From contig OY540813.1 of the NCBI GenBank assembly GCA_961205875.1, positions 27,127,001 through 27,191,000 of the forward strand: a DNA stretch of 64,000 nucleotides, in the 5' to 3' direction. The position numbers and the translations under genes are program-made. Source of the stretch: Sialis fuliginosa (lineage: Eukaryota; Arthropoda; Insecta; Megaloptera; Sialidae). Under the pieces are notes generated by a model. That model was given only the letters and a program-made list of their open reading frames with translations, was not told the origin of the DNA and searched no databases. Below are positions 20,730-29,333 of the stretch, piece after piece. Position 1 is the first letter of the stretch. Each line of letters starts with the position of its first letter.

Positions 20730-21915
20730 ACCTAGTTACTAGTGTCTTTTTAGTAATATCGGGTATTAAAATGTTAAACATTTACAGACTTAAATCGCCT
20801 TTCTTATCCTTTTCACGAAAAAACATTAGATATAGTCAAATTAAAAATATGTAAATGAGAAACAAAAAACGCCTACTGCTGTGTATAATTTGAATACGTA
20901 TATTTCCTGTAATGTTCGTTACTTCTTAGGTTTGTTTACGTTTCACAATCGTTATGTATTTAAACCGCAACACAATTTTACGTCTGGCAGTAAAACAAGC
21001 CCAGATGCTTTTAAACTTTGGAAAATGTATGACTTAACATTCTCAAAACTAATGTTGCAGTTATTTTGGGAAGAGTTGTAAAGATACAAACGCAATTTCA
21101 AGAATGTTTGTTTGAAAACAGTTGTCACAAATACTTATGTTTTTAAACTTGATAGATAGAAAATTGAAACATAAATGGGAAAAGAACTAAATATGAACTT
21201 TCTGAGTGTATTTACATAAGTATATCAAACAGTTAATGACTTAAACACGATTTAGAGAACGGTGCTAATTGTAAATAAAATACGTCTCTCGTAAATTCAG
21301 GTTCGGGTGTGAATTTTGGAATTTTAAACAAACTGATTTACTTTCTAAAACAACAAACAAGTTAAACTAAAAATATAATTTTTGAAATGAAACATAATTT
21401 TTGTTATGATTAACCACAAGAATGATCGAAACTGATACTAGTGAACTTTGATGAACCTTGTTCTATGTACAAGATATTTTTATTAGAAATTATAAAGAAA
21501 GTGTATTCAATTTTTATATTCTTTAATATAACTTTGTCAAGTAAGAAGAACGATCACATGGATAATAAATGAAACTATAATAATTTTTTAGCTTTTAATT
21601 GTTTTATAATGTATTTTCTAGTATACATTTAATGAAAATATCTAAATGACTCTTATACCTTCGATTAGCTTAAAAATACAAAAAAGTGAGCAAAAAGTTG
21701 AAAACAGCGTAAAGTAGAATAAATATGTATAAACAAAACATTATTATTGTAACGGATAAATGTACTGAAGTTCTCTTGATGCCAGTTAACATATGTTGAA
21801 TAATTATCTGAAAATATGGATTAACTTAATAATTTCGTTTTAATTGTTATATAAACAATTATTTAAAATCTATTATCTACAGGGTTTTTGTGCCAACAAA
21901 AATTCAAATTCAATT
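20730..21915. other. Gene-free AT-rich spacer
   Basis: No gene, repeat or structured element recognised apart from the left copy of the 12-bp direct repeat (21904-21915) that flanks the next insertion. Confidence 0.4.
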
Positions 21916-21990
21916 ACTGGAAAAATGGAGAAACTGTGGTTTCTAGTCACTTAAACTAAAATATACACCTTAACCACAATAAAACAATGT

Positions 21991-22036
21991 CACTCGACAC
22001 GTGTTTCGACTTTACAAGAAGTCCTCATCAGGAGCC
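21991..22036 (-). ncRNA. Hammerhead ribozyme motif, left arm
   Basis: This is the mirror of the right-arm motif, read on the minus strand. The core boxes CTGATGA and GAAAC are intact. The single base that differs between the arms falls in stem II and shortens it from 6 to 5 pairs (gactt/aagtc). Otherwise it has the same layout as 22063-22108. Confidence 0.5.
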
Positions 22037-22062
22037 TAACAGTTCCAGACTAGGAACTGTTA

Positions 22063-22108
22063 GGCTCCTGATGAGGACTTCTTGTGAAGTCGAAACACGT
22101 GTCGAGTG
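22063..22108 (+). ncRNA. Hammerhead ribozyme motif, right arm
   Basis: Read on the + strand: stem I 5' side ggctc (22063-22067); CTGATGA core (22068-22074); one extra G; stem II gacttc (22076-22081) and gaagtc (22086-22091) with loop ttgt; GAA core (22092-22094); a tiny stem III in acacgtgt (22095-22102); cleavage base C22103, giving a GTC triplet; stem I 3' side gagtg. All invariant hammerhead positions I can place are present. The short stem III is the form described for Penelope-type hammerheads. Weak points are the bulged G before stem II and a stem I of only 3-4 pairs. Activity is not shown. Confidence 0.55.
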
Positions 22109-22161
22109 ACATTGTTTTATTGTGGTTAAGGTGTATATTTTAGTTTAAGTCAAATTCAATT

Positions 22162-28057: not shown

Positions 28058-29333
28058 CTGGGTGATTCATTTAGATGTACTTTAAAAAAAAATAAAAAAA
28101 AATCAATTTTATCGGGTATCTTTGTTATCATATAAAAAAAACCATTCTTTACATTTATTTTTTAAAGATAATTTGTTTCAAATGTTGGCCGTAACTGCGC
28201 CAAACATGGTCCATTCTGTAGTTCCAATTTTCGATGACGCGTTCGAGCATTTCGAGTGGTATTTGGCGAATGACGCGAATAATATTGGCTTCCAACTCCT
28301 CAATCGTAGCCGGCTTATCCATGTTGAATTTGGACTTTACGTTACCCCAAAGGAAAAAGTCTAGAGGTGTGATATCGCAAGATCTAGGCAGCCAATTCAC
28401 CGGTCCGAAGCGTGAAATTAACTGTTCACCGAATTGTTCTCGTAATAAAGCCATGCTTTCACGGGCTGTGTGGCAAATAGCGCCGTCTTGTTGGAACCAA
28501 ATGTCGTCGAGATTACGGGCTTCAATTTCAGGTAGCAAAAAATAGTCCGTTATCATGGCGCGATAACGGGCATCATTTACAGTTACGTTCCGGCCGGCCT
28601 CATTTTTGAAAAAATATGGACTGATTATTCCACCAGCCCATAAACCACACCGAACCGTAGTTTTGTCTGGATGTAATGCCAGTTCTTGAACCTCTTCGGG
28701 TTGTTCTTCAGATCAAATACGTCAATTTTGTTTATTAACGTAGCCGTTGAGCCAGAAATGTGCCCCACCGCTGAACAAAATTTTGGTCGAAAACAGTGGA
28801 TTTTCTTCAAGCTTTTCAAGAGCCCAAACACTGAAACGGTCACTATTCGGAAGGCCGGCCGGCTTCAATTCTTGCACGAGTTGAATTTTGTATGCTTTCA
28901 AACCAAGTTCCTTACGTAAAATACGCCAAGTTGTTGCATACGACAAGCCAAGCTGTTGAGAACTGTGTCGAATCGATTCATCACGATCATCGCGTATACT
29001 CTCAGCTACATTTTGTTCACTACGTGCTGGATGTGGTCTATTTGGTCGTGTATTATCCAATAATGAACATTTTCGATGGTATATCGAATTGTATGTTCGG
29101 TAGGCCGATTATGTGGACCATAAGTTGCTCTAAGCGCACGAAACACATTCCTCGTAGAACACTGATTTTCATAATACAGCTGAATAATTTGTAGACGCTG
29201 TGCCGGGTTAAAACTTTCCATAATTAAATGTCAAACAATACTGAACAAAAATACCATGACAGTTTGACACGGCTCAGTAGTTTTCTGTCATAAAATCCCT
29301 ACAGAAAAAAATACCTCTAAATGAATCAACCCA
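28058..29333 (-). mobile_element. mariner-like transposon, near full length, inactive
   Basis: The terminal repeat tgggtgattcatttagatgt (28059) matches the reverse-complemented right end tgggttgattcatttagagg (29333 inward) with one indel and one substitution. TA dinucleotides flank both ends (28054-28057 region and 29334-29335). The 1.28-kb length and the single minus-strand transposase fit a mariner-like element of the IS630-Tc1-mariner superfamily. Confidence 0.85.
28155..29221 (-). pseudogene. mariner-like transposase with frameshift, stops and a lost catalytic site
   Basis: The coding region starts at ATG 29221 (MESFNPAQRLQIIQL), giving the N-terminal helix-turn-helix. A frameshift near 29055-29065 moves reading to the frame containing DNTRPNRPHPARSEQ and a second helix-turn-helix (SSQQLGLSYATTWRILRKEL). 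The catalytic domain follows. The first acidic motif, normally FSDEAHF, reads FSGGAHF. Two TGA stops lie close together just after NGYVNKQN (about 28722 and 28713), where Cys and Trp are usual. The second motif is intact (WFQQDGA) and so is the third (SCDITPLDFFLWG), with 36 residues between the two aspartates by hand count. Total length, about 355 codons, is normal. The copy cannot make active transposase. Confidence 0.85.

Follow-up and report, generated by a model that had tools for sequence, protein, structure and literature searches.

Palindromic inserts with hammerhead motifs in Sialis fuliginosa as probable twin-primed insertions of a Penelope-like retrotransposon

Within the 64,000-nucleotide stretch of Sialis fuliginosa DNA analysed here (the window) lies an insert of 234 bp, 21916–22149, delimited by perfect 12-bp direct repeats (TCAAATTCAATT) at 21904–21915 and 22150–22161. 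This target-site duplication (TSD) bears out the view of the first-pass annotation that the DNA arrived as a mobile insertion. Its description of near-perfect arms of about 98 bp also holds: the inverted arms, 21949–22046 and 22053–22150, are 98 nt each, 99% complementary and 6 nt apart. Outside the palindrome, and on one side only, alignment of copies defines a 33-nt tail (21916–21948, minus strand) that contains a GAAAC-CACA-GTTTC stem-loop sequence when read on the minus strand, and that may correspond to the RNA between two start sites for reverse transcription (RT). The tail-bearing left arm (21949–22051, minus strand), defined by the inverted repeat and by a query match, would be a first cDNA reaching to position +1 of the RNA, the A of AGTCTGGAAC; the tail-less right arm (22053–22149, plus strand) would be a second cDNA, ending at the second start site (TTTAAG). 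A 136-nt query of arm plus tail matches 22051–21916 (minus strand) at 98.5%, and the outer ends of the insert, counted on the sequence, lie 113 and 79 nt past the ATG in CTGATGA, the tail end being the one at 113, reckoned from the A of that ATG. Scoring of the junction places the meeting point of the two putative copies of an RNA 5′ end at the centre, AGACTA (22047–22052), with the left arm complete, the right arm 5 nt short and 1 nt unassigned.

The ATG within CTGATGA opens just 12 codons in the window copy. Inspection by eye picks out a 60-nt GT...AG stretch that begins immediately past the cut site of the ribozyme and extends to the stem-loop of the tail (window 21934–21993, minus strand), a possible 5′ intron whose removal would leave the ATG frame open through the tail end. 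In a predicted fold of the arm-plus-tail RNA (22051–21916, minus strand), the 5′ CUGGAA is complementary to the tail UUCCAG, and the ends of such a template could pair. Elsewhere in the window, 28155–29230 (minus strand) holds broken pieces of a transposase, which we take to be mariner-like, with a frame containing MESFNPAQRLQIIQLYYENQ.

Both boxes, CTGATGA and GAAAC, are present in each arm together with GTC and a short stem III, in line with the earlier proposal of minimal hammerhead motifs of the kind found in Penelope-like elements (PLEs). Pairs of CTGATGA and GAAAC separated by 6 to 25 nt occur only twice in the 64-kb window, at 22068–22096 (plus strand) and 22003–22031 (minus strand), one in each arm and both facing outward. 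The motifs, of the minimal type I, occupy 21990–22037 (minus strand) in the left arm and 22062–22109 (plus strand) in the right, the two arms differing by a single stem II base, G to A. The window sequence reads ACACGTGTC, with a predicted cut after C22103 on the plus strand; in the left-arm motif, on the minus strand, the predicted cut falls between 21996 and 21995. The Rfam model Hammerhead_1 aligns over its full length (1–45 of 45) on both strands at 18.9 bits, compared with a gathering score of 34, the alignments having a short stem III, which lowers the score, and a stem II region longer than that of the model. At gathering scores, the whole 64-kb window has no Rfam match, and by that rule the arms fall outside RF00163; because the score is under the gathering threshold, we use the term hammerhead motif and do not speak of a proven ribozyme. 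The arms do possess the conserved core CUGANGA / GAAA / UH with its stems, of type I and of the minimal PLE kind. Of the outcomes that the first-pass annotation had named as refuting, the lack of a covariance-model match above threshold was observed, whereas the lack of other copies with conserved boxes was not: there are 41 aligned palindromes and hundreds of relatives genome-wide. Of the 82 arms aligned, 73 retain the core boxes unbroken; 32 copies have them so in both arms, and all 41 in at least one. Minimum-energy folds of single arms showed no hammerhead, a result that carries little weight for a minimal, possibly protein-assisted ribozyme. For a hypothetical transcript of the whole insert, the long hairpin that had been foreseen is indeed the predicted fold, at −183.3 kcal/mol for one strand and −176.5 kcal/mol for the other. 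Microrna-like Rfam matches across this hairpin lie far under their gathering scores and were rejected as reflecting the palindrome only.

The host genome (392 Mb, 20 contigs) contains many relatives of this insert. A search with the insert gave 1916 candidate places, and the 40 with the best scores contain 41 full-length palindromes, one of them the window copy; these are as such a sample that favours complete palindromes. All 41, spread over 13 contigs and 221–251 nt in length, were aligned. They share two fixed outer ends: the end with the tail reads ..CCAGT (+0–6 nt), its left-end form ACTGG being present in 39 of 41 copies with 0–6 extra nt before it, and the end without the tail reads ..TTTAA (+0–4 nt), TTTAA lying within the last 10 nt in 37 of 41. 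The 33-nt tail is on a single side throughout, and the copies thus have both the one-sided tail of 30–40 nt and the inverted arrangement of PLE-type pLTRs. Perfect TSDs of at least 8 bp flank 34 of the 41 copies; these are short, as in PLEs (most commonly 12 bp, range 8–14 bp), and 80% A+T, and when left and right flanks of different copies are mispaired, a TSD of at least 8 bp arises in 0.6% of 1640 combinations. The other seven copies have no TSD of at least 8 bp, five scoring 0 and two scoring 5–6. Exact matches were also counted genome-wide on both strands, with reversed-pattern controls that all gave 0: the 56 nt from the arm start to the cut site occur 199 times and the arm end with its tail 224 times, and head-to-head centres with perfect 12-nt anchors are found at 57 places. 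Near-perfect palindromes are a known class of assembly artefact, and one might attribute the insert to foldback reads or to a chance inverted repeat. However, the TSDs and the variety of flanks and centres in the 41 copies, which are spread over 13 contigs, together with the 199 exact occurrences of the 56-nt arm stretch against none for its reversed control, leave such an origin extremely improbable. A DNA transposon of the MITE or foldback kind was rejected in view of the varying TSD length, the differing centres and the presence of the tail at one end only.

Several further arrangements of these sequences were observed. At L013 (C4:19528234–19528791), two palindromic copies lie 83 nt apart with similar flanking repeats (..TCAGAATTT); one copy may sit in the target duplication of the other, or the locus may have been duplicated. 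On C1, four arm tiles with 176-nt spacing (39236312, 39236488, 39236664 and 39236840, plus strand) accompany a fifth at 39236021 on the opposite strand, perhaps a tandem array of PLE-end units resembling pLTR tandems or retrozyme-like repeats. A 200-kb sample of the genome held one single-arm relative, L070 (3256–3313), which is 93% identical over 58 nt and stops inside the arm after GAG; TAGGGCATACATACCGG then follows, resembling the end of another transposon that apparently interrupts the insert.

The source of the arms can be traced to a longer element. The end of an open reading frame (ORF) with GIY...YIG adjoins the arm, or is reached by its upstream continuation, at L077, L076 and L083. 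The L077 ORF scores 18.6 bits against Pfam PF01541, under the cut-off of 22.6, and a stretch of it is 31% identical over 120 aa (E 2e-14) to L075, a second PLE in the genome, which passes that cut-off at 30.9 bits and has, upstream of its GIY-YIG frame, a frame that we take to be RT-like from its motif. A genome search with PF01541 gave two matches, one of them L075 and neither in the PLE of interest, which was found via the arm search. The endonuclease (EN) protein query, in turn, gave 137 matches among 135 scored of 1103 candidates, one of them (C9:1397309–1398166, minus strand) in an 854-aa open frame. An EN match lies no more than 150 nt upstream of the arm in at least 15 of 100 listed arms, a lower bound because the comparison took in 45 of the 137 EN matches; the matches near arms end 35–38 nt before the arm start in 14 cases and 132 nt before it in one. 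A GIY-YIG endonuclease ORF is thus tied to the same ends as the arms, and the Penelope-like ORF with those ends for which the first-pass annotation had suggested a search does exist, just upstream of them. Judged from its sequence context, the arm is the terminal region of a Penelope-like element, directly downstream of the GIY-YIG ORF. Besides L075, the genome holds another PLE family at C9:1293245–1298706, about 55% identical to the query and with open frames of up to 815 aa.

The sequence just upstream of the arm is informative about where its RNA might begin. In L077, TATAAATA, which we take to be a TATA-like box, starts 31 nt before the arm start, which itself reads TCAGTC, presumably an initiator-like motif; with a TATA-like box at −31, the common inner end of the arms would be the 5′ end of the RNA. 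One aligned copy, L016, extends about 8 nt further upstream than the common arm start, as judged by eye. When 9 nt of PLE sequence are placed before the 56-nt arm start, 47 exact genomic occurrences are found, such that just 47 of the 199 exact arms run upstream into PLE sequence. It could be argued from this that the template of most short copies was a SINE-like single-arm RNA, consisting of the start, the hammerhead and the tail and using the PLE enzyme in trans; given an internal promoter, the tail-bearing arm of each palindrome might be transcribed outward. Against this, the TATA-like box is located in the PLE sequence upstream of the arm and is absent from the aligned palindromes, and the PLE copies that were compared gave no marker private to the short copies. 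We consider such a template unlikely.

Comparison of the two arms within each copy bears on how the palindrome was formed. The marker classes of the short copies comprise the run types TATATTTT, TATATTTTT and TATAATTTT and a T-to-G site, and across the 82 arms of the 41 copies the main variants common to several copies, T/A-run types included, occur in both arms of a copy. Specifically, the T-to-G change at column 76 is present in both arms of six copies and a one-base deletion at column 90 in both arms of two, neither being found in a single arm. Run type agrees between sibling arms in 35 of 41 copies, compared with 13.3 expected and a maximum of 24 in 20000 shuffles (among the six discordant copies, L042 differs in run length only). 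Likewise, the mean distance between sibling arms is 4.6 versus 5.7 in shuffled pairs, none of 10000 shuffles being as low, although the sibling is among the nearest arms in only 18 of 41 copies because most arms are near-identical. Variants confined to one arm are mostly private, with some, chiefly G to A, recurring in two or three copies; G to A, in the ribozyme sense, also accounts for more one-arm changes than any other substitution (28 of the 75 counted, 18 of them in left arms and 10 in right arms). Gene conversion between the arms was considered as the source of the mirrored markers and rejected: copy-private substitutions affect one arm 48 times and both arms twice, which makes later arm-to-arm conversion an unlikely cause.

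The centres behave differently from the arms' markers. There are 30 kinds in the 41 copies, that of the window copy, AGACTA, being found in no other. Six kinds recur, and at least three of these include copies of different marker class; identical centres in different marker classes indicate that centres recur and are not inherited by descent. These features bear directly on the idea, raised in the first-pass annotation, of a free-standing non-autonomous element moving as a head-to-head pair, here taken as a palindromic retroelement whose transcript, as a hairpin RNA or as hairpin DNA, would be integrated in one piece. The numerous coding-free copies and the 57 head-to-head centres genome-wide would suit such an element, but the variety of centres, their recurrence across marker classes, the mirroring of common variants and the occurrence of arms alone, in asymmetric copies or joined to PLE ORFs all speak against it, and no subfamily with one centre and arm-specific variants was seen among the 41 copies. 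We therefore did not retain that idea and regard it as very improbable. Rather, each insertion event seems to build the palindrome anew, with a single-arm RNA as its template.

How two arms could be made from such a template is suggested by their ends. Inner ends were scored in 39 of the 41 copies (L022 and L047 were left out). At least one arm reaches AGTC (AGTCTGGAAC) in 36 of these, with its partner 0–16 nt short; the complete arm is the left, tail-bearing one in 21 and the right, tail-less one in 18, with both complete in 3 and neither in 3. At the junctions, 12 copies have an overlap of 1–3 nt, 9 are blunt and 18 have 1–14 nt unassigned. Four of eight loci, picked by hand from the arm search and not a random sample, are also relevant here. 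At L080 (TSD GTGATAAATA), the tail-bearing arm is 52 nt including the tail and the tail-less arm is 105 nt and reaches the 5′ end; at L079 (TSD CAATAAGAGAT), the corresponding arms are 49 nt including the tail and 103 nt, the latter again reaching the 5′ end. In these two copies, the short arm carries the tail and the long arm does not, so neither arm is a plain copy of the other and each needs its own start, one outside the tail and one inside. L081 is a single arm plus tail with the TSD AATTTTCTTAT, and no TSD was found at L078.

These arm ends allow the preferred explanation to be weighed against self-priming, in which a single cDNA would fold back at its 3′ end and be copied into the second arm. 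Self-priming on an antisense template was inferred from palindromes at inverted PLE junctions of Adineta vaga, in the portion of that report available (PMC3846280), and 28 of 41 centres leave 3–21 nt between complementary arms, mostly enough for a turn, the window copy (6 nt) being among them. In L077, moreover, the junction of the two long arms falls within the ORF and reads CACAT-11 nt-ATGTG, a centre that fits self-priming better than two independent truncations, such that this route may also operate. However, the remaining 13 of 41 centres leave 0–1 nt, too few for a hairpin turn. Furthermore, a fold-back copy would be expected to repeat the tail or to be without it on both sides, yet 15 of 39 copies have only the tail-less arm complete and the tail on the other, and L079 and L080 carry the tail on the short arm and none on the long one. 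It is mainly the tails that make the case against self-priming, the centres by themselves being compatible with it, and we judge it an improbable origin for these palindromes.

We consider it likely, reasoning from these sequence patterns, that the insert arose by twin priming, a Penelope-like retrotransposon having copied the 5′ end of its own RNA into the site. Such an RNA would start at a promoter inside the terminal repeat (the TATA-like box at −31 and the initiator-like TCAGTC), begin with AGTCTGGAAC, and contain first the hammerhead and then, near the stem-loop, two internal sites for the start of RT, whose spacing of about 34 nt accounts for the one-sided tail. The PLE enzyme would cut both target strands about 12 bp apart, and each target 3′ end would prime one cDNA, initiation at the outer site leaving the tail and initiation at the inner site leaving none. 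Each cDNA would then pass the uncut hammerhead and continue to, or almost to, the RNA 5′ end; the cDNA ends would be joined through a short overlap, as blunt ends or with the addition of a few bases; and the target duplication would result from gap filling. The two cDNAs may share a single RNA molecule as template or derive from separate RNAs with a common source. We infer the enzymatic steps, the transcription start, the use of a single RNA and the joining pathway, and the most uncertain parts are the identity of the template RNA (the PLE mRNA or a short derivative) and the end-joining pathway. In twin priming of L1, two cDNAs primed from both target strands give rise to inverted segments, the second primer annealing inside the RNA. 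The proposed PLE route is similar in that two cDNAs yield inverted segments, but here both would have fixed internal start sites and would stop at the 5′ end of the RNA. Among the papers listed by a joint search for L1 twin priming and Penelope, none dealt with PLE insertion, to judge by titles and the opening lines of abstracts.

The proposal has a consequence for the ribozyme. A 22-nt ribozyme tile immediately before the cut site has 931 exact occurrences in the genome, a count that could be inflated by other PLE families with the same ribozyme core, and the 22-nt tile just after the site has 928; neither tile contains a CpG. A cut RNA serving as template would end the arms at this point, and the equal counts on either side indicate that the copied templates were apparently uncut. 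This suggests that reverse transcription through an uncut hammerhead is the better reading of the counts than use of a cut template. The same observation is relevant to the animal non-LTR retrozymes, which, in the available part of their description (PMC7229834), are similarly small non-coding repeats with type I hammerheads, but are arranged as tandem direct repeats, with a hammerhead-cut circular RNA thought to be copied. Here, in contrast, the arms face each other, and the copied RNA was apparently uncut and would start upstream of the ribozyme. Assignment to the non-LTR retrozymes was accordingly rejected, the arms being inverted in all 41 copies and the tile counts around the cut site equal.

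It is informative to examine these inserts in light of what has been described for other PLEs, as far as the accessible portions of those reports extend. Minimal hammerheads have been reported in PLEs (PMC7761336). In Anolis, the PLE protein cleaves both strands, extends each of them and has a preference for AT-rich sites; it begins RT internally at two adjacent sites, mostly at an AC-rich stem-loop 111–118 nt into the ORF; the 30–40 nt between the RT starts constitute the “tail”, and ribozyme mutants still insert (PMC11167929). The S. fuliginosa insert is alike in its two adjacent putative RT starts, the 111–118 nt of Anolis comparing with 113 and 79 nt here, and PLE pLTRs in general share the one-sided tail of 30–40 nt, linked to two internal RT starts, and the AT-rich targets. 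Poseidon_Ac, whose ribozyme activity was demonstrated in the presence of protein, has the same hammerhead-bearing terminal repeat and GIY-YIG ORF (PMC11167929), and Pen2a of the rotifer A. vaga, for which self-priming was proposed, has the same inverted head-to-head pLTR with a 31-bp tail and a short TSD of 9 bp (PMC3846280). The difference is that the window insert consists only of two copies of what would be the RNA 5′ end, whereas the Poseidon_Ac and Pen2a structures, in the text available, are either solo pLTRs or pLTRs that enclose an ORF or captured DNA. PLEs were already known to have inverted pLTRs with a tail, and the new part is the genome-wide evidence for two cDNAs; in the open-access literature, to the extent accessible, we found no earlier description of two-cDNA PLE scars of this kind.

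Open questions in PLE biology include the route of integration, the reason for the hammerhead and the reason for inverted repeats with a one-sided tail. One purified PLE was shown in 2024, in the part of the report accessible here, to cleave both strands, extend each of them and initiate internally (PMC11167929). The scars described here look like the genomic counterpart of the product of that enzyme and are numerous enough for models to be tested on them. They speak for two independent cDNAs and against self-priming, would locate the 5′ end of the RNA at a promoter within the pLTR, and suggest that the ribozyme had left the copied RNA uncut. It is even possible, although we stop somewhat short of calling it probable, that two-sided internal target-primed reverse transcription, in which a complex with two active sites extends both strands along a single RNA molecule, is the ordinary insertion route of PLEs. 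If so, the inverted pLTRs, the tail and the palindromic scars would all follow from that one route, and hundreds of genomic footprints would record where the PLE RNA begins, where its two RT starts lie and that its ribozyme was uncut in vivo.
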